From Adhaeribacter pallidiroseus (GTDB lineage: Bacteria > Bacteroidota > Bacteroidia > Cytophagales > Hymenobacteraceae): a stretch of 64,000 bases of DNA. A program made the position numbers and the translations under genes. How positions within the stretch are numbered: position 1 is the stretch's first letter; each line of letters starts with the position of its first letter. Shown here piece by piece: positions 2,483 through 60,619 of the stretch. Location of the stretch: contig NZ_QASA01000001.1 of the NCBI RefSeq assembly GCF_003340495.1, forward strand, positions 3,224,001 through 3,288,000, read 5' to 3'. Below the pieces are notes generated by a model that did no database searches, was not told the origin of the DNA, and saw nothing but the letters and a program-made list of their open reading frames with translations.

Positions 2483-4771
2483 ATGCACAGAAACCTTTTT
2501 CTTATTGGTGGTACTCTTTTATTCCTTTTTGGATGCAACGCTTCCAAAACCCCGGATAACCAAGAACCAGTACTTTTTACGGTAGCAGGCAAGCCGGTAA
2601 CTACCACCGAATTTAACTATGTTTACAATAAGAATAACAGTCAACCGGATAATGGAGCCGCTAAAGGCAGTGTACAGGAGTACCTGGAACTGTACACCAA
2701 TTTTAAATTAAAAGTTACTGAAGCCGAGAAACGCGGGTTAGATACAACCGCGGCTTTCCGGAAAGAATTAGAAGGCTATAAAGAGCAGCTTGCCCAACCC
2801 TACCTAACCGAAAAAAATGTAACCGACCAGCTCATAAAAGAAGCTTACGAACGCATGAAAAAAGAGGTGAATGCCTCGCACATTCTCGTAAACGTAGCGG
2901 CTGATGCGGAACCCAAAGATACCTTAGCTGCCTACAATAAAGTAGTAGCCCTGCGGCGTCGGGTAGAGGCCGGCGAAAATTTTAACGAGTTAGCCCGCGC
3001 GGAATCGGACGATCCATCGGCTAAAGAAAATAGTGGTAATTTAGGTTTTTTCACGGCATTGCAAATGTTATATCCATTTGAAAAAGCAGCCTACAATACC
3101 GAAGCCGGCCAATTATCTAATCCTGTCCGGACCCGCTTTGGGTACCATTTAATCAAGATAAATGAAGTACGGCCGGCTCAGGGCGAAATTAAAGTAGCGC
3201 ATATTATGGTACGCGCTACTCCTGGTATTCCCAAAGCGGACTCGGTAGTAGCCAAGAAGAAAATAGACGCTATTTACAATCGGCTTACCCGAAAAGAAAA
3301 CTGGGATAAACTTACCGCGCAATTCTCAGAAGATGCTAGTTCTTCCACGAAAGGCGGTGAATTACCCTGGTTTGGCACGGGTCGCATGCTGCCTTCTTTT
3401 GAGGAAGCCGCTTTTAAATTAACTAATGTTGGCGATGTATCTAAGCCAGTGCAAACTCCTTACGGTTGGCATATCATAAAATTAATTGAGCGCCGCGGCT
3501 TGCCGGCTTACGAAGAAATGGAGCCTTACCTGCGCAGTAAAGTAGCTAAAGACTCCCGCTCCGAATTAAATAAATCGGCTTTTCTAAAGAGAATTAAGCA
3601 AGAAAATAACTTTCAGGAAACAAAAGCCGCCAAAGACTTTGCTTTGAGTAAAGCTACCGATGCCTTAAAGGAGGGCAGTTGGCAATATACCGGCGCTGAC
3701 AAAGAAATGAATCAAACTCTTTTTTTGCTTCAGGACCGGCCGTTTACGGTAAAGGATTTTTTTGCTTACGTCCAACAAAATCAAAAAGGCACTACTAATC
3801 CCACCTCTCCTACGCATTTAATGAATGTGCTATACGATAATTATGTAACAGCTAGCCTATTGAACTATGAACGGGAGCACCTGGAAGCGAAATACGTGGA
3901 TTACCGCATGTTAGTAAACGAATACCGCGACGGCATTTTGCTGTTTCAGTTAATGGATGAAAAAGTATGGTCTAAAGCCATTCAGGATACGGTTGGTTTA
4001 CAAACCTTTTTTAAAAATAACAAAGAAAATTATAAATGGGATACCCGGGCCGATGCTATAATAATTAGTGCTGCCAACAAAGATATTTTAACTCAAGCCC
4101 AGCAGATGCTTACTGCTGGTAAATACGAATTAAGTAAATTACGTCCGGAGCCTTTGTTGTTTCCGGCGGGAAAGGAAGTTATTACTCCCACCATGACCAA
4201 TCAACTAAACGAAGTTTACGATCGGTTATCCAGTGATCCGTCGCTTACCCTCCAGCTTACCGGTAACGCCGACAGCAAAGAAAGTACCGGCAAAAATGCT
4301 GGTCTGGCTAATAAAAGAGCGCAGCAAGTAGCCGCTTTTCTTACCGGCAAAGGCATTACAGCTAATCGCCTGACTATTACTGCTAATAAGCCTAAAGCAG
4401 TAGCTACTGCTAATCGTAATGTAACCTTTACCTTATTTACCAGTGACCTGAAAGGGATAGAAGAAGCACTAAATACCTCTAACCCTTTAGACGTTCAGGT
4501 GCAAAATAAACGTTTTCAGAAAGGCGAAAACAAGATACTGGATGAAATTACCTGGCAGGAAGGCACCTATAACCTGGATAAAGATGGACGGGCTATTTAT
4601 ATTAAAATAAATAAAATTTTACCTCCTGGTTATAAAACCCTGAACGAAGTGCGTGGCTTAGCCACTTCCGATTATCAATCCTACTTGGAGAAGGAATGGC
4701 TGAAAGAGTTGCGCCAAAAGTACCCCGTAGAAGTAAATGCAGCTGAAGTACAAAAACTTACTCAAAAATAA
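2483..4771 (+). CDS. Peptidyl-prolyl cis-trans isomerase lipoprotein, two parvulin domains plus embedded OmpA-like module
   Basis: The product is a periplasm-facing lipoprotein foldase. I start it at ATG 2483, not the in-frame TTG at 2468, because that gives a good lipoprotein signal peptide ending in LFGC (Cys near residue 18). Two rotamase (parvulin) domains follow at about residues 130-230 and 240-340, each with the SSxxGG/LGFF and FGYH or YGWH signatures. Unusually, residues about 570-650 look like an OmpA C-terminal peptidoglycan-binding domain: LTGNADS, then an Asn and a KRAQQVAAFL segment. This would tether the foldase to the cell wall. It is followed by the SurA-like gene, and the pair probably serves outer membrane protein maturation. 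Confidence 0.88.
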   Translation: MHRNLFLIGGTLLFLFGCNASKTPDNQEPVLFTVAGKPVTTTEFNYVYNKNNSQPDNGAAKGSVQEYLELYTNFKLKVTEAEKRGLDTTAAFRKELEGYKEQLAQPYLTEKNVTDQLIKEAYERMKKEVNASHILVNVAADAEPKDTLAAYNKVVALRRRVEAGENFNELARAESDDPSAKENSGNLGFFTALQMLYPFEKAAYNTEAGQLSNPVRTRFGYHLIKINEVRPAQGEIKVAHIMVRATPGIPKADSVVAKKKIDAIYNRLTRKENWDKLTAQFSEDASSSTKGGELPWFGTGRMLPSFEEAAFKLTNVGDVSKPVQTPYGWHIIKLIERRGLPAYEEMEPYLRSKVAKDSRSELNKSAFLKRIKQENNFQETKAAKDFALSKATDALKEGSWQYTGADKEMNQTLFLLQDRPFTVKDFFAYVQQNQKGTTNPTSPTHLMNVLYDNYVTASLLNYEREHLEAKYVDYRMLVNEYRDGILLFQLMDEKVWSKAIQDTVGLQTFFKNNKENYKWDTRADAIIISAANKDILTQAQQMLTAGKYELSKLRPEPLLFPAGKEVITPTMTNQLNEVYDRLSSDPSLTLQLTGNADSKESTGKNAGLANKRAQQVAAFLTGKGITANRLTITANKPKAVATANRNVTFTLFTSDLKGIEEALNTSNPLDVQVQNKRFQKGENKILDEITWQEGTYNLDKDGRAIYIKINKILPPGYKTLNEVRGLATSDYQSYLEKEWLKELRQKYPVEVNAAEVQKLTQK

Positions 4772-23169: not shown

Positions 23170-25590
23170 ATGAAAATGTTTACCAAGTCTGGCCTGCTGA
23201 AATCCGGGCTGGTAGTGGCGGCAGTAGCCTCCCTATCCGTGTTTGCCACCCGCTACAATTACTTGGAATCTTCCAGTCACCGGGAAGCTCCCATAATTGC
23301 CAATGACCCCTTGGCCGATAATACCGACGTGTATGCTTTCCGTAACCCCCGGAACAAGAACAATATGGTAATTATCGCAAACTACGTTCCCTTTCAGCAT
23401 CCGCACGGCGCTCCCAACTTTTATAGCTTCGGAGAAAATATTGCATACGATATTCACATTAAAAACGACGCTACCAAGAAAGAAGACGATATTTTGTACC
23501 GGTTTGAATTTAAAATAACGAATGAAGACCCCACCACGCACTTTTACATCCGCTTAGGCAAGCAAAATCAGAAAAACACCTATACCTGTAAGAAAAGTAC
23601 TGATGGGGGTAAAACTTTTACTACTATCATCAGCAATGGCGTGGTGCCGCCTTATAATGTAGGCCCGCGAAGCATCCAAAGTGCAGTTGGTTTAAACAGC
23701 GACTACGACAAACTGATGCAAGGCGCGATTATGACCGCCAGTACCGGTGAAAAAGTCTTCTGCGGACCGGTAGATGATCCGTTTTTTGTAGATATTGGAG
23801 GCATTGAAGATTTAGGTAACGTTCGGTCGAACAAACCGGTTGACGGCTTAAAAAGACTGAATGTACACAGCATTGCATTGGATATTCCGATCGAAATGCT
23901 AAATAAAGAACACCAGAAAGTAAGCCAGGCCTGGAGCATTCTGGATCCAGATTTTATTATTGGCGTTTGGGCCTCGGCTAGCCGACGTAAAATTATGGTA
24001 CGCGAAAGCAATGGTAAAATCAAACACGAGGGCGAATACGTACAGGTTTCGCGTTTAGGCATGCCGCTCACTAACGAAGTAATTATTCCGATTGGTAAAA
24101 AAGACGAATGGAATAGTGTTTCGTCTAATAAAGATTCAAAAGATTTTGAGCAATACTTTACTAACCCGGAACTGGCATTATACATGGATGATTCTAAATT
24201 CGGGAAAGCTGTGCCGGGTTTAGCGCCTTTGCGCATTCAAACTAAATCGTTGGGTAAGTATGACTTCCGGAATGGGGCTGATGGCTTGTATTCTTTGTTA
24301 GGCAATCCAGCTACTAAAGGTACCGCCCTGGACACCAAATTATTCGGGAATTATTTACTCCGCGATAACGAACCCCGCTCCGTAGATTTACTACCAATTT
24401 TTATGACAGGGGTGCCAAACCTACCCCCCTACCAACTAGCTACTGGTAAAAAAGACGGTAACCCTTTGGCCGCTGGTAAACCATTTATCAATAACTTTTT
24501 GCCTACTTTCGGCGATATGTTGCGGGTAAATATGTCTACTCCGGTTACTACCCGCGAATCGCCGGACTTTAGCAGTTTAGGTTTGGTGCAAGCCGCTGTG
24601 CTAGGTTTAACCGATCCGCGGTATAATAAAACCAAGTTTGTTCAGTTTATTCCGAACATGGACGGCTTCCCGAACGGACGTCGTTTAGAAGATGATGTAG
24701 TGCGCATTGAATTACAAGCAGTTAGCGGCGTTGTGCTGGCGGCAATAGGTTTAGGCTACGACGATTATGACGTAAAAGCAGGGGCCGGAACCATCGGCGA
24801 TGTAGAACAACAACATAATAGCGATCCGATTTTGATTACACCACCCGCCGGTACCATTATAACGGATATTCGTTCGGCCACATTTGGTACGGGTAAAGGC
24901 AGTAGTTACGATAATTTTAAATTTGATGCCAGTTGCCAAGCCGATGTTACCGATATTGTGAGAACTTTTTACGCGGCCCGTCTAACAGACTTTGAACCTA
25001 ACTACCAAATTCCGGTAAACCGCAATGTTTTAGGTAATCCGTGTCCGGGTTCCGAAAAAAGTTTGCTGGTTTTAGCAGATTACCGCACGCCGGCTAGCTT
25101 GGCTACTAAAAATTTAGTGAATGTTTTAACCTTTACTACTGGAGTTGAGAAAAATGATGCTCCGTTGCCCGGCGCGTTTCCTTTTGAAGCCAGACCTTGG
25201 AACGGATTCCTTGATGGCGGCCATGGTAATGACAATGGTAGCGGTAATATTGACCCTAGCGCTAGTTCCAGCATGGCTCCTTTTCAAGCACCAGCCAGCA
25301 TGAATTTAGCTGCTCCTGATGTAATGCTGAAACAAATGGAAAGCTTTCCAAATCCTTCACAGGATCAAACTACTTTCCGTTACCATATTGTGCAGCCAGC
25401 TAATGTTAGCTTACATATTTACGATGCTAATGGCAACTTAATAGCTACTCCGGTTAACAAGGAACCAAGAGCTGCGGGCACGTACGAAGTAGCGGTAAAC
25501 GTAAGTAAGTACAAGGGCGGTATTTATTACGCCCGCGTAGTAAACGGAACTAAATCCGACCAAACTTTAAAATTTGTTGTTACTAAATAA
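23170..25590 (+). CDS. DUF4331 family secreted protein with type IX sorting domain
   Basis: The 806-residue protein begins with a signal-like hydrophobic segment (about 10-28) and then the DUF4331 opening SSHREAPIIANDPLADNTDVYAF at about 35-57. A C-terminal domain at about 720-806 starts SFPNPSQDQTTFRY and ends GGIYYARVVNG..LKFVVTK, a classic type A sorting signal of the type IX secretion system, so the protein should be exported to the cell surface. DUF4331 function is unknown. It is followed by a TPR gene, a pairing I recall from other Bacteroidota. Confidence 0.9.
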   Translation: MKMFTKSGLLKSGLVVAAVASLSVFATRYNYLESSSHREAPIIANDPLADNTDVYAFRNPRNKNNMVIIANYVPFQHPHGAPNFYSFGENIAYDIHIKNDATKKEDDILYRFEFKITNEDPTTHFYIRLGKQNQKNTYTCKKSTDGGKTFTTIISNGVVPPYNVGPRSIQSAVGLNSDYDKLMQGAIMTASTGEKVFCGPVDDPFFVDIGGIEDLGNVRSNKPVDGLKRLNVHSIALDIPIEMLNKEHQKVSQAWSILDPDFIIGVWASASRRKIMVRESNGKIKHEGEYVQVSRLGMPLTNEVIIPIGKKDEWNSVSSNKDSKDFEQYFTNPELALYMDDSKFGKAVPGLAPLRIQTKSLGKYDFRNGADGLYSLLGNPATKGTALDTKLFGNYLLRDNEPRSVDLLPIFMTGVPNLPPYQLATGKKDGNPLAAGKPFINNFLPTFGDMLRVNMSTPVTTRESPDFSSLGLVQAAVLGLTDPRYNKTKFVQFIPNMDGFPNGRRLEDDVVRIELQAVSGVVLAAIGLGYDDYDVKAGAGTIGDVEQQHNSDPILITPPAGTIITDIRSATFGTGKGSSYDNFKFDASCQADVTDIVRTFYAARLTDFEPNYQIPVNRNVLGNPCPGSEKSLLVLADYRTPASLATKNLVNVLTFTTGVEKNDAPLPGAFPFEARPWNGFLDGGHGNDNGSGNIDPSASSSMAPFQAPASMNLAAPDVMLKQMESFPNPSQDQTTFRYHIVQPANVSLHIYDANGNLIATPVNKEPRAAGTYEVAVNVSKYKGGIYYARVVNGTKSDQTLKFVVTK

Positions 25591-56418: not shown

Positions 56419-57096
56419 TTATTTGGCGATTAATTGCGTGTGTAAACCGCATTCGGTTTTGTTCATACCAAACCAGCGGCCGTTGCGGTCGTCGAGTAAA
56501 GCATCAACGTCTATTTTGCGGGTGCAAGGCTCGCAACCAATGCTCACGTATCCTTCGCCTTCGAGCGGATGCTTAGGTAATTTATGTAACCGGATGTAGT
56601 CGTATACCATTTTGCTGGTCCAGCCCAGCATCGGGTGGTAGCGCAACACACCGTTAGGCGCTTTTTCTTCGCGCTTCATTTGCGCCCGTACTTTGCTCTG
56701 GTCGCCGCGTACCCCACTGATCCATACATCGTTGCTGGCCAGAATTGGTTCTAAAGGCTGAATTTTGTTTAAATAGCAGCAATAATCCGGGTCGGAGGTA
56801 AAGAGCAAACGGCCGTTAGCATCACGTTGCTGGTATTTTGGCACCGCCGAAAACAAATCGGTAATGTTTAAGCCCAGCAAATCTTTTACCTGTTGCCGGA
56901 ACTCCAGGGTTTCCGGAAAATGGTAACCCGTATTTAAAAAATAAATAGGAATTTCGGACGCCACCTGGCTGATAATGTGCAATAAAGGCATGCTGTTCGT
57001 CTGTAACGACGAAGAAGCAAATATCTTTAAACCGCGTGCTTTATAAGCATCTAAATCCTGACGGATATCTTCGGTTAATTGTTCAAACTCGGTCAT
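56419..57096 (-). CDS. cysH: Adenylylsulfate/phosphoadenylylsulfate reductase
   Basis: The 225-residue protein has the PAPS-reductase fold with IYFLNTGYHFPETLEF (about 50-65). It carries the two Cys pairs of the iron-sulfur type, CC in DYCCYLN (about 105) and CxxC in GCEPCTR (about 190), which mark an APS-reductase-like enzyme with a 4Fe-4S cluster. The catalytic Cys is in KTECGLH near the C-terminus. It reduces activated sulfate to sulfite for cysteine synthesis. The 166 bp before it hold octad arrays and the stop of the previous gene. Confidence 0.94.
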   Translation of the reverse strand: MTEFEQLTEDIRQDLDAYKARGLKIFASSSLQTNSMPLLHIISQVASEIPIYFLNTGYHFPETLEFRQQVKDLLGLNITDLFSAVPKYQQRDANGRLLFTSDPDYCCYLNKIQPLEPILASNDVWISGVRGDQSKVRAQMKREEKAPNGVLRYHPMLGWTSKMVYDYIRLHKLPKHPLEGEGYVSIGCEPCTRKIDVDALLDDRNGRWFGMNKTECGLHTQLIAK

Positions 57097-57202: not shown

Positions 57203-57263
57203 AACTTTCCAACCTTTTAACCTTGCAACTTTCTAACCATTATTTAACCTGTAACCTGTAACT
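57203..57263. repeat. Octad-then-heptad array (right arm) at the end of the MoeZ-like gene
   Basis: Five 8-bp units (AACTTTCC, AACCTTTT type) are followed by three 7-bp units (TTTAACC, TGTAACC, TGTAACT), so the period changes within one array. The last unit touches the stop codon of the MoeZ-like gene. Confidence 0.8.
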
Positions 57264-58405
57264 TAGTATTTAGCCATAGTGGGATCAATTTCGTTGGCCC
57301 AGGCCAGAATGCCACCTTTTAGGTTATACAGATTTTTAAAACCGTATTTCTTCTCTAGAGCTGCAATTGCTTTCGCGCTCCGAACCCCGGAACGGCAATG
57401 CAAAACTACGTTTTTATCGGAAGCAATTTTATCAATAGCAGTTTCTACTTCAGCCAGCGGTATTAATTCGCCGTGTAAGTTCGCAATTTCGTATTCGTAA
57501 GGCTCGCGCACGTCAATCAACTGGAAATCGGTGTGGTTTTCCTGCCATTCGTGCAAATCACTTACCGAAATTTCTTTTACTTTTTCCTTTTCGTCTTCGT
57601 CATCGGCACCAATACCGCAGAAGAATTCGTAGTCAATCAGTTCAGTTATGGGTTTGTTGTCCGGATCTTTGTGCACTTTTAATACCCGGGTTTCGAATAC
57701 GGCGGCATCAAATAAGAATAACCTGCCGGATAATGGCTCACCTACGCCGGTTAAAACTTTAATAACTTCGTTGGCTTGCAAAGAACCAATTATACCGGGC
57801 AACACGCCCAATACGCCTCCTTCGGCGCAACTCGGCACTAAGCCGGGCGGCGGTGGAGTCGGGAATAAATCGCGGTAATTAGGCCCGGTTTTACCTTCGG
57901 CATCGGTGTAGTTAAATACCGAAACTTGCCCTTCGAAGCGGAAAATAGAACCGTACACGTTGGGTTTGTTTAAAATAACGCAGGCATCGTTTACCAAATA
58001 GCGGGTCGGAAAATTATCGGTACCGTCGGCTACTAAATCATAGTCCCGGATAATATCCAGCGCATTTTCGGAAGTTAACCGTTCGTTGTGCACGATAAAG
58101 TTTACGTGCGGGTTTAAAGCCGCCAAACGATCTTTCGCCGCTTCTACTTTCGGGCGGCCCACATCGGCTACACTAAATAAAACCTGGCGCTGCAAGTTGC
58201 TATCGTCTACCACGTCGAAGTCCAGGATACCAATAGTACCCACGCCGGCCGCGGTTAAATACAACAACAAAGGGCTGCCTAAACCCCCGGTGCCCACTAC
58301 CAAAACTTTGGCAGCTTTTAAACGGCGCTGACCTTCAATATTAAATTCCGGTATTATCAAATGGCGGCTGTACCGCTCTAATTCTTGTTTATTAAAAGTT
58401 ACCAT
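57263..58405 (-). CDS. MoeZ-like ThiF/E1 adenylyltransferase with C-terminal rhodanese domain
   Basis: The 380-residue protein activates and sulfurates a ubiquitin-like sulfur carrier. The E1 part (about 1-265) has the ATP site VVGTGGLGSPLLLYL, the metal site DVVDDSNLQRQ and the Cys segment PSCAEGGVLGVLPG. It reads NYRDLFP where classical MoeB has the zinc CYRC, the form I recall from mycobacterial MoeZ. The rhodanese part (about 285-378) has active-site Cys in VLHCRSGVRS. MoeZ is the enzyme that thiocarboxylates CysO in mycobacteria, and a CysO-like gene lies upstream here. Confidence 0.9.
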   Translation of the reverse strand: MVTFNKQELERYSRHLIIPEFNIEGQRRLKAAKVLVVGTGGLGSPLLLYLTAAGVGTIGILDFDVVDDSNLQRQVLFSVADVGRPKVEAAKDRLAALNPHVNFIVHNERLTSENALDIIRDYDLVADGTDNFPTRYLVNDACVILNKPNVYGSIFRFEGQVSVFNYTDAEGKTGPNYRDLFPTPPPPGLVPSCAEGGVLGVLPGIIGSLQANEVIKVLTGVGEPLSGRLFLFDAAVFETRVLKVHKDPDNKPITELIDYEFFCGIGADDEDEKEKVKEISVSDLHEWQENHTDFQLIDVREPYEYEIANLHGELIPLAEVETAIDKIASDKNVVLHCRSGVRSAKAIAALEKKYGFKNLYNLKGGILAWANEIDPTMAKY

Positions 58406-58500: not shown

Positions 58501-58779
58501 TTACTTGCTACCACCGGCAATGGCCGGGATAATACTGATCACGGAGTTTTCCTGCACAGCGGTTTGCTCGTTTTGTAAGGCCTTAATGTCCTCGTCGCCG
58601 AGGTATAAGCGCACAAACTTACGCACCTGCCCCGCATCGTCGAAAATATGTTTTTTTATTTCCGGGTGCGTCTCTGCTAAACTTTGCAGACTTTCCAACA
58701 CGTTAGAGCCGTTGGTTTCAATGGTGGCCTGGTTGCCGGTAAACTTCCGGAGGGGCGTAGGAATGATAATTTTTGCCAT
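58501..58779 (-). CDS. MoaD/ThiS-family ubiquitin-like sulfur carrier, CysO-like, with C-terminal GG-SK
   Basis: The 92-residue protein starts MAKIIIPTPLRKFTGNQATIE and ends AIAGGSK. Sulfur carriers of this family must end in Gly-Gly to be adenylated and thiocarboxylated. Here two further residues (Ser-Lys) follow the GG and would need removal. The JAMM protease gene immediately upstream (1 bp gap) could do this. Together with MoeZ-like and CysM-like enzymes it should form a CysO-type cysteine pathway. Confidence 0.88.
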   Translation of the reverse strand: MAKIIIPTPLRKFTGNQATIETNGSNVLESLQSLAETHPEIKKHIFDDAGQVRKFVRLYLGDEDIKALQNEQTAVQENSVISIIPAIAGGSK

Positions 58780-58780
58780 T

Positions 58781-59218
58781 TTAGTTATGGTGAATAAAAT
58801 TTTGGTTTTGTAAAATAGATTCTTCTTCGAACTGATTCGCCTCGTTTAACTGCCACGAAGTTAAGTCAGCTACTTTGCCCTCTCTAACTGACACAATAAT
58901 GTAAGAGAAATACGGCACGGCCTGGTTTAAATCGTGCTCCGATGGCCGGGCTGGATGATCGGGATGAGAGTGATACACTCCTAATAAACTAGTGTTGTTC
59001 TCCAGCGCATATTTTTCGGCTCGCATGTAATCAACCGGAGAAATCTCGAAACGGCGGCGTTTATCGCCATTTTTGCTGTTAATTACCGGCACGGTTTCCT
59101 GCACCAATCGTACCTCGGTTTCGTGGCCGTACAAAAAACCGCAGCATTCATCCGGATAAATCTCGGTGGCGTGTTCCTGAATCAGGCGCTGGGCGGTTTC
59201 GGTGAGTTGTAATTTCAT
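58781..59218 (-). CDS. Mec-like JAMM zinc metalloprotease (M67)
   Basis: The 145-residue protein has the JAMM zinc motif HSHPDHPARPSEHD (HxH-x7-SxxD; about residues 82-95) with an upstream catalytic Glu in YPDECCGFLYG near 21-31. Mec proteases release cysteine from the CysO carrier in mycobacteria. The gene is between the CysM-like gene and the carrier gene, matching mec-cysO-cysM. It could also trim the SK tail of the carrier. Confidence 0.9.
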   Translation of the reverse strand: MKLQLTETAQRLIQEHATEIYPDECCGFLYGHETEVRLVQETVPVINSKNGDKRRRFEISPVDYMRAEKYALENNTSLLGVYHSHPDHPARPSEHDLNQAVPYFSYIIVSVREGKVADLTSWQLNEANQFEEESILQNQNFIHHN

Positions 59219-59276: not shown

Positions 59277-60209
59277 CTAAAACAGCGACTTTAATACTTC
59301 GGCGTATTTTTCGGCATTGTCCGGGAAAACCGTTACGATTACTCCTTCTTCGATGCTATCGGCCACTTTAATGGCACCCGCTAAATTAGCGGCGGCCGAA
59401 GGACTAATTAACAATCCTTCTTTTTGCGCAACTTTCTGAATTAAGTCGAAAGCCTCGTAGGTATCAATCGCCAGATTTTGATTAGCAATAGTAGCATCGT
59501 AAATCTTCGGAACCCGCGCGGTTTCCAGGTGCTTCCACCCTTCCAGACCGTGCATGGCGGCATCGGGTTGCAACGATATTAATTCGATTTCTGGATTTAA
59601 CTCTTTCAGCTTGCGGCTAGTGCCGGTAAACGTACCCGTAGTGCCTAAACCGGCCACAAAGTGGGTAATCTCCCCTTTGGTTTGCCGGAAAATTTCGTTA
59701 GCCGTGGTATGGTAATGGGCTTGCCAGTTACTTTGGTTACCGTATTGATCGGCGTAGAAATACCGGTCCGGGTAATCAGAATATAACTGTTTGGCAATTT
59801 CCTGCGCTTCGTCTGTGGAGCCGAAACGGGAAGTATACACGATGTTAGCGCCGAAAGCTTTTAGTAAGGTTTTCCGTTCTTCGGAAGCATTTTCGGGTAA
59901 GCAAATAGTAACCGGAATTTGTATGGCAGCGCCAATAGCGGCGTAGGCAATGGCCGTATTACCGCTCGAAGCATCCAGTAAAGATTGACCGGGTTGTAAT
60001 TGGCCGCTTTTCACCGCATCCTGAATAATCCGGAAAGCTGGCCGGGCTTTCACGCTGCCGCCTAGTTGTTGCCACTCTAGTTTCGCGTAAATTTTAACGC
60101 CCGGTTTGCTGTAAGCCCGGGTAATCGGGAACAAAGGCGTATTGCCTATAAAAGAACTTAAAGTACTTAGTTGCTCTTGTAAATCTTGCGTTTCGGCGGT
60201 GAGTAACAT
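59277..60209 (-). CDS. cysM: Cysteine synthase, CysM-like PLP enzyme
   Basis: The 310-residue PLP enzyme has the Lys site GGSVKARPA (about 50-58), the substrate Ser loop DASSGNTAIAY (about 80-90) and the phosphate-binding GLGTTGTFTG (about 186-195). Length fits CysM. It converts an activated serine and either sulfide or a sulfur-carrier thiocarboxylate to cysteine. Given the MoeZ/CysO/Mec neighbours I favour the carrier-dependent version. It is the first structural gene after the double attenuator, 38 bp past the second terminator. The TAG stop overlaps a short heptad-like tract (about 59266-59282). Confidence 0.93.
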   Translation of the reverse strand: MLLTAETQDLQEQLSTLSSFIGNTPLFPITRAYSKPGVKIYAKLEWQQLGGSVKARPAFRIIQDAVKSGQLQPGQSLLDASSGNTAIAYAAIGAAIQIPVTICLPENASEERKTLLKAFGANIVYTSRFGSTDEAQEIAKQLYSDYPDRYFYADQYGNQSNWQAHYHTTANEIFRQTKGEITHFVAGLGTTGTFTGTSRKLKELNPEIELISLQPDAAMHGLEGWKHLETARVPKIYDATIANQNLAIDTYEAFDLIQKVAQKEGLLISPSAAANLAGAIKVADSIEEGVIVTVFPDNAEKYAEVLKSLF

Positions 60210-60246: not shown

Positions 60247-60286
60247 AGAAATAAAAAAAGCCTTTCCGGGAGTCCAAGAAAGGCTT
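60247..60286 (-). terminator. Attenuator terminator 2, before cysM
   Basis: On the minus strand the 9-bp stem AAGCCTTTC (60278-60286) with GAAAGGCTT (60258-60266) is followed by seven T residues. Its 5' arm lies in 60278-60290, which can instead pair with the end of leader 2 (60322-60334). Confidence 0.88.
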
Positions 60287-60307
60287 GATGATAGACGTAT
60301 GTACAAA

Positions 60308-60394
60308 TTAACACGCAGCCGCATCAAGGCTTCCCCGGGGGCAAGCACAGCAACAGCAACACGCCGCATAGTTAATTATAAATTGTCCGTTCAT
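60308..60394 (-). CDS. Cysteine-rich leader peptide 2
   Basis: A 28-codon ORF starts at ATG 60394 (MNGQFIINYAA), then has five Cys codons in a row, Ala, another Cys, and ends PRGSLDAAAC. Seven of 28 codons are Cys, which is extreme for any protein. A longer frame upstream is open but would run backwards through terminator 1, so the short ORF is preferred. Stalling on the Cys run when charged tRNA-Cys is low would leave 60322-60334 free to pair with the terminator arm at 60278-60290 and stop termination. Confidence 0.85.
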   Translation of the reverse strand: MNGQFIINYAACCCCCACPRGSLDAAAC

Positions 60395-60417
60395 TTTAAT
60401 TTCTTTTAGTACATAAA

Positions 60418-60451
60418 CAAAAAAAGCCTTCCCAAGTTTCGGAAAGGCTTT
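60418..60451 (-). terminator. Attenuator terminator 1, between leaders 1 and 2
   Basis: On the minus strand the stem AAAGCCTTTCC (60441-60451) pairs with GGGAAGGCTTT (60423-60433), 11 bp with one wobble, followed by a T run of seven. Its 5' arm (60439-60450) is also complementary over 12 bp to the end of leader 1 (60487-60498). Confidence 0.88.
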
Positions 60452-60474
60452 TATATTCTTGCTTTTTTTAATTT

Positions 60475-60573
60475 TTATAAAACAGCAAACCTTTCCGAGA
60501 GTGTAAACGCCGCGCAACAGCAACCTGCCAGCGCATTGTTAACAACCGAAAAAGTATTATTTGCTTTCATCAT
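60475..60573 (-). CDS. Cysteine-rich leader peptide 1
   Basis: A 32-codon ORF starts at ATG 60573 (a second ATG follows at once), reads MMKANNTFSVVNNALAG, then three Cys codons in a row, and ends AAFTLSERFAVL. The start lies about 10 nt after the predicted transcription start, so the mRNA is nearly leaderless. Codons after the Cys run (60487-60498) can pair with the 5' arm of terminator 1. A ribosome stalled at Cys would leave that segment free and block termination, while a ribosome reaching the stop would cover part of it. Confidence 0.83.
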   Translation of the reverse strand: MMKANNTFSVVNNALAGCCCAAFTLSERFAVL

Positions 60574-60588
60574 TTATTTTAATTGCGG

Positions 60589-60619
60589 CAAAGGTAAAAA
60601 ACAAAACCAAAGCACCAAA
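60589..60619 (-). promoter_or_regulatory. Promoter of the cys attenuator operon
   Basis: On the minus strand a -33 TTTG (60616-60619), a 19-nt spacer and a -7 element TACCTTTG (60589-60596) form a full match to the Bacteroidota promoter consensus. The start is expected near 60583, about 10 nt before leader 1. Confidence 0.78.

Follow-up and report, generated by a model that had tools for sequence, protein, structure and literature searches.

The trp- and his-type attenuators of E. coli are built upon codons for the product amino acid, an antiterminator located after those codons and an intrinsic terminator, the last two being mutually exclusive. The same elements are found in the leader region described here, which lies before a cysteine synthesis operon in the window (the whole 64-kb stretch of DNA analysed). 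The region fulfils three criteria for a trp-type attenuator, having a leader ORF rich in codons for the amino acid that the operon makes, an intrinsic terminator before the first gene and a conserved antiterminator that excludes it. It differs from the E. coli systems in the amino acid, in having two units in series and in the absence of a clear 1:2 hairpin from unit 1.

The predicted element uORFC-8-2, located upstream of cysS in Rhodobacterales, comprises a Cys-codon leader and a terminator and is ascribed to ribosome-mediated attenuation (PMC8632094). It has two Cys codons in a single unit and is reported only for cysS in Rhodobacterales (PMC8632094), whereas the Bacteroidota leaders have runs of 3–8 Cys before cysM and other sulfur genes, and do not meet the criterion of lying before cysS in Rhodobacterales. 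As the earlier note had stated, poly-Cys short ORFs also precede the cys operons of mycobacteria, where no conserved terminator hairpin was found (Seliverstov 2005, PMC1262725). A poly-Cys ORF before a cysteine operon is common to the mycobacteria and the window, but the type found in the window has an intrinsic terminator and an antiterminator that co-vary. The mycobacterial leaders are reportedly leaderless ORFs, going by the title of a 2020 study by Canestrari.

The leader of Salmonella mgtCBR contains two ORFs, each an attenuator, with ATP and proline as the signals, an arrangement that its authors call singular (PMC3641672). There the signals are different and intrinsic terminators are lacking, whereas in the window both ORFs carry Cys runs, from which a shared signal is inferred, and both are followed by intrinsic terminators. 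Duplication in series before amino-acid genes is also seen in double T-boxes and tandem riboswitches, where both copies are regulators of the same kind (PMC9413887, PMC7583486). These regulators bind tRNA or ligand directly; none was found in the window, in which no Rfam covariance model matched at its gathering score and only sub-threshold noise was seen. Within the same phylum, main-text passages of a study of Flavobacterium psychrophilum suggest leader-peptide attenuation upstream of amino-acid operons; the general mechanism is the same, and those passages name neither a cysteine case nor tandem units (PMC9723704). The earlier note knew of no description in Bacteroidota, and the open-access literature likewise yielded neither a Bacteroidota cysteine attenuator nor a serial pair of leader-peptide attenuators for one amino acid, an absence that is only weak evidence. 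We consider it highly probable that cysM-mec-cysO-moeZ-cysH is preceded in this region by a series of two trp-type transcription attenuators, each of them ribosome-mediated and reading Cys codons.

Anatomy of the leader region and its operon

The leader region is located on the minus strand between the end of cysQ (60660) and the start of cysM (60209), and passes in order through a promoter, leader ORF 1, terminator 1, leader ORF 2 and terminator 2. Both poly-Cys leader ORFs and both terminators were found at the bases given in the earlier note when the sequence was re-read. The promoter, inferred from sequence (60589–60619, minus strand), has TTTG at 60619–60616, followed after 19 nt by TACCTTTG at 60596–60589. 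The Bacteroidota promoter consensus is of this TTTG type, and the whole arrangement is conserved in three relatives of the same genus. The ‘consensus promoter’ of the earlier note is thus upheld as a genus-conserved match of Bacteroidota type but not as a sigma-70-like one; a sigma-70 scan, uninformative here, gave no promoter upstream of leader ORF 1.

Leader ORF 1 (60475–60573, minus strand) encodes the peptide MMKANNTFSVVNNALAGCCCAAFTLSERFAVL followed by a stop codon, with three consecutive Cys codons at 60522–60514. Its predicted start is likelier to be the second ATG (60570), since an alignment shows this to be conserved across the three genus relatives. After the Cys codons comes the antiterminator segment, region 2 (60487–60498, minus strand), which is conserved in the genus and can pair with 60439–60450 through 12 bp including one G–U, exactly as the earlier note described. 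Terminator 1 (60414–60452, minus strand) has its stem at 60452–60422, with a U-rich tail at 60421–60414 after it, and its 5′ arm is region 3. The strand then continues as leader ORF 2 (60308–60394, minus strand; peptide MNGQFIINYAACCCCCACPRGSLDAAAC, then stop), whose Cys codons form a CCCCC-A-C pattern, with five consecutive codons at 60361–60347 and single codons at 60343–60341 and 60313–60311. Region 2 of unit 2 (60322–60338, minus strand) pairs with 60274–60290. The seven plus five pairs around one C·C mismatch that had been claimed are exact, and the helix extends further, to 9 + 7 pairs. Terminator 2 (60250–60286, minus strand) has its stem at 60286–60258, again followed by a U-rich tail, at 60257–60250. 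In the folding predictions unit 2 has a 1:2 hairpin and unit 1 has none. Elsewhere in the window there is only one other, weak case of a Cys-cluster ORF with a terminator (24765–24881, minus strand).

The operon that follows lies on the same strand. Its first gene encodes a cysM-like cysteine synthase of the PALP family (59277–60209; PF00291, E 1.7e-66). The best NCBIfam model for the product is TIGR01138 cysM at 295.6 bits, under the equivalog cut-off of 394.2, and the name cysM rests on homology and context. It is followed by genes for a mec-like JAB/JAMM peptidase (58781–59218; PF14464, E 4.8e-25), a cysO-like small sulfur carrier of the ThiS family (58501–58779; PF02597, E 6.1e-12), a moeZ/moeB-like adenylyltransferase with a rhodanese domain (57263–58405; PF00899 and PF00581) and a cysH-like (P)APS reductase (56419–57096; PF01507, with NF002537 above its cut-off). 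Actinobacteria have a CysO-dependent cysteine pathway with the same set of genes. On the other side of the leader region lies cysQ and then, divergently, cysC- and cysD-like ORFs, the last two identified by inspection. Within the sampled family, close orthologues of the window CysM (59277–60209) are restricted to a handful of genomes from its genus, and the other genomes that match offer only relatives at ∼36–39% identity.

Conservation and co-variation of the units

Among 200 sampled genomes of the family, close CysM orthologues (94–97% identical) occur in only three others, all of the same genus. Both units are present in each of these. Every genome of the genus (4/4) has kept the Cys codons, segment 2 and the terminator of both units, around which the sequence in large part drifts. 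A further scan, using one genome per species, added 80 loci, mainly from Cytophagales, Saprospiraceae, Chitinophagales and Flavobacteriales, with five of Fodinibius type (Balneolota). Altogether 84 cysM loci were compared, the window included, nearly all from Bacteroidota. One of these loci (L112) lies in a MAG labelled Gammaproteobacteria, and has a Bacteroidota-like cysM with the same attenuator; this may be a mis-binned contig or a transfer.

A poly-Cys leader ORF with an intrinsic terminator is present in 72 of the 84 loci, which contain 95 units in total, and the search upstream of cysM proposed in the earlier note is answered positively. Combinations of a Cys-cluster ORF and a terminator occur eight times in 1.15 Mb of background strand from the compared loci (0.0028 per 400 nt), from which ∼0.2 loci would be expected. 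As predicted from these loci, the Cys-leader system is widespread in Bacteroidota, mostly as single units, and is not peculiar to this genome. In 30/72 loci a TAnnTTTG motif occurs no more than 120 nt before the first leader ORF, where mononucleotide shuffles would give 6.6.

The 12 loci without a unit include two where the contig ends too early (L067 and L099), three with cysM as an internal gene of a longer operon (L111, L119 and L129), two where the unit is absent (L074 and L122) and the five of the Fodinibius group. In this last group (L107, L109, L113, L118 and L120) a poly-Cys ORF does precede cysM, with its stop codon directly after the Cys run. No convincing intrinsic terminator follows the poly-Cys ORF at any of these five loci; an apparent weak one in L118 was judged spurious and excluded from the counts. 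Several of them have, after the ORF, an inverted repeat whose loop is rich in pyrimidines, and the mechanism is perhaps Rho-dependent or translational.

The residue forming the run in 82 upstream regions is most often Cys (56), and next Leu (19); TGY repeats read in an overlapping frame can produce runs of Leu. Both Cys codons are in use in the leaders (391 TGT and 143 TGC). Runs range from 3 to 8 Cys, non-contiguous Cys is also present, and, the run itself excepted, the leader peptides have no sequence conservation before or after it.

The antiterminator provides an independent test, because units were picked by leader and terminator alone. Pairing of the post-Cys segment with the 5′ arm of the terminator has a mean energy of −14.6 kcal/mol, compared with −7.9 when the segment is shuffled. 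Taking one unit per locus, the native duplex averages −14.5 kcal/mol and falls to −10.5 when arms are permuted between loci, with 0/2000 draws as good. Many arms are CCTTTC-like, but the 32 units with other arms give the same result (−13.9 native against −9.2 permuted, with −10.9 the best of 5000 permutations). Examples include CCTCACC with GGTGAGG (L091 and L110), CCATTCC with GGAATGG (L102) and CCTTTTCGAG with CTCGAAAAG (L071). In an alignment of 87 units, 76.5% of cells in the antiterminator helix are paired, with 60 double changes against 28.8 in shuffles; for the terminator helix the corresponding values are 95.7%, 108 and 21.3. Both helices lose support on sliding by one column. Relatedness of the sequences inflates the significance drawn from shuffles, and the sliding and locus-permutation controls weigh most. 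On this alignment region 3 co-varies with both of its partners, as a true switch requires. Had related genomes failed to conserve the Cys runs or the alternative pairing, the earlier note would have been refuted; across the 95 units of the 72 loci the Cys runs, the terminators and the antiterminator pairing are all preserved, with co-variation.

The tandem layout recurs beyond the window, with 23 tandem loci in total (20 if the window's genus is taken as one) and 49 single; the cultured relative Flexithrix dorotheae has one unit. A −7-like motif is present in only 1/23 of the gaps between tandem units, because of which we think that both units are probably carried on one predicted transcript. 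On a quick CysM tree the single or tandem state changes at least 10 times, and the window's genus is recovered with support as a tandem clade, the loci nearest to it being single; the tree cannot separate gain by duplication from loss. Of 17 pairs with runs of unequal length, 16 have the longer Cys run in the second leader (sign test p = 0.0003, an optimistic value since the loci are related), and three further pairs are equal. This recurrent order of short then long runs constitutes a specific and unexplained design rule. At two loci, L055 (∼3914–3980) and L065 (∼3875–3930), a single poly-Cys leader is followed by two serial terminator hairpins, another way in which the stop is doubled.

The predicted switch and alternative explanations

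In the proposed mechanism the ribosome would reach the stop codon of the leader when Cys-tRNA(Cys) is plentiful, and there would hinder the post-Cys segment. The terminator would then form and RNA polymerase would halt. When Cys-tRNA(Cys) is scarce the ribosome would stall on the Cys run, leaving the segment free to pair with the 5′ arm of the terminator, and the polymerase would read on. It would face the same test at both units in turn. The anatomy, the conservation and the co-variation of the competing helices are observed, as is a predicted switch on modelled ribosome positions. Translation of the leaders, charged tRNA-Cys as the signal and multiplication of the two readthrough probabilities are inferred, in the absence of expression, ribosome or term-seq data.

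Region 2 starts a median of 27 nt past the first Cys codon, and since the distance is at least 12 nt in 95/95 units it should stay free when a ribosome is stalled on Cys. With the ribosome at the stop codon a simple footprint covers at least 40% of region 2 in 62/95 units and leaves it wholly uncovered in 20/95; in unit 1 of the window region 2 merely abuts the footprint. Folding was calculated with the ribosome treated as a block, and nearest-neighbour energies leave out kinetics and tertiary structure. Within these limits the median probability of upstream pairing of the 5′ arm is 0.86 with the ribosome stalled, 0.15 with it at the stop codon, and 0.48 when stalled with a shuffled spacer. 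The antiterminator is predicted with a Cys-stalled ribosome in 91/95 units, and a switch in 81/95. In the window the probability falls from 0.87 to 0 in unit 1 and from 0.92 to 0 in unit 2 on moving from stall to stop. At equilibrium the full-length unit 1 RNA is predicted to favour the terminator even with a stalled ribosome, so the decision must fall during transcription, with the antiterminator forming first, as in trp.

It might be argued that only one unit regulates, most likely the second with its five Cys codons, the first being a weak copy or one in decay, and that no functional series exists. Single units do outnumber tandem ones (49 against 23 loci), unit 1 has just three Cys codons, and in L036 the stem of terminator 1 is weakened (−11.3 kcal/mol). 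Yet the Cys codons, segment 2 and terminator of both units are kept across the genus despite the drift around them, tandem loci outside the genus likewise have both units intact, and in the window the antiterminator match of unit 1 (−18.7, z −5.1) exceeds that of unit 2. We regard regulation by one unit alone as unlikely. The possibility that the leader is an arrest peptide or a metal- or thiol-sensing peptide, in which the nascent poly-Cys chain stalls the ribosome in response to zinc, copper or oxidant in place of empty A-site codons, draws on runs of up to eight Cys and on the 1-Cys-type peroxiredoxin gene that follows the leader in several relatives. Arrest peptides usually require specific residues. 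The flanks of the Cys run are unconserved, however, its length varies from 3 to 8 with non-contiguous Cys, and the genes regulated are those of cysteine synthesis, leaving such a peptide very unlikely.

An explanation that was already disfavoured, and is now scarcely tenable, would see in the hairpins nothing but the terminators that end cysQ, and in the Cys runs chance or by-products of TGY repeats. The end of cysQ is indeed just upstream (60660), and TGY runs occur at 45 other places in the window's genome. Those examined revealed no further unit, being mostly within or antisense to genes or without the layout; moreover, the promoter sits between cysQ and the leaders, and the units are conserved and co-vary across loci. 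It is very likely that the leaders are genuine cysteine attenuators, arranged here in series; that they respond to cysteine, and that the second unit brings a benefit, is inferred. Wide conservation of this switch in Bacteroidota means that these bacteria probably make their cysteine enzymes only when ribosomes lack charged cysteine tRNA, again with the response to cysteine inferred. They would thereby gain a directly testable cysteine sensor without a protein regulator, located before core sulfur-assimilation genes in many lineages. The natural pairs of single and tandem leaders allow one to ask what a second attenuator copy adds, be it range, steepness or a second threshold.

Units before other genes

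In the window's own genome the cysM operon alone scores clearly. The covariance model R1 gives 61 and 56.5 bits for the two window units, and background terminators of the same genome reach at most 39 bits. The tally of R1 matches (259/291 genomes at E ≤ 0.001) consists mostly of ordinary terminators and was set aside; matches were read singly only where the score was high, and six of these (L159, L162, L164, L165, L167 and L169) are plain terminators. A class-wide exact pattern was too strict, missing even the window's own units, and its near-empty result was discarded.

In five loci (L083, L096, L104, L116 and L133) the units are followed by a 1-Cys-type peroxiredoxin gene and then cysM, a gene order that links cysteine supply with peroxide defence. 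Units precede a NIR_SIR sulfite/nitrite reductase-like gene in three more (L130, L132 and L152), in tandem in L152. On the reverse strand of L163, two Cys-rich leaders in tandem (∼1293–1368 and ∼1457–1550 of the reverse complement) lie before a gene with a TonB-dependent receptor plug domain, which suggests a transporter controlled by cysteine or sulfur. A broader proposal is a Bacteroidota-wide regulon of cysM/cysO, sulfite reductase, peroxiredoxin and TonB receptor genes, in which attenuators for the same amino acid are repeatedly placed in series, with short then long Cys runs, so that the response to tRNA-Cys charging would be sharper or have two thresholds; we regard the case for and against it as evenly balanced. 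Leaders of mixed Cys and Trp content (such as RCACWFWCCMC and CACWFWCCPC), with terminators, lie before sulfite/nitrite reductase-like genes in L153, L154, L166 and L172, and may sense two amino acids.
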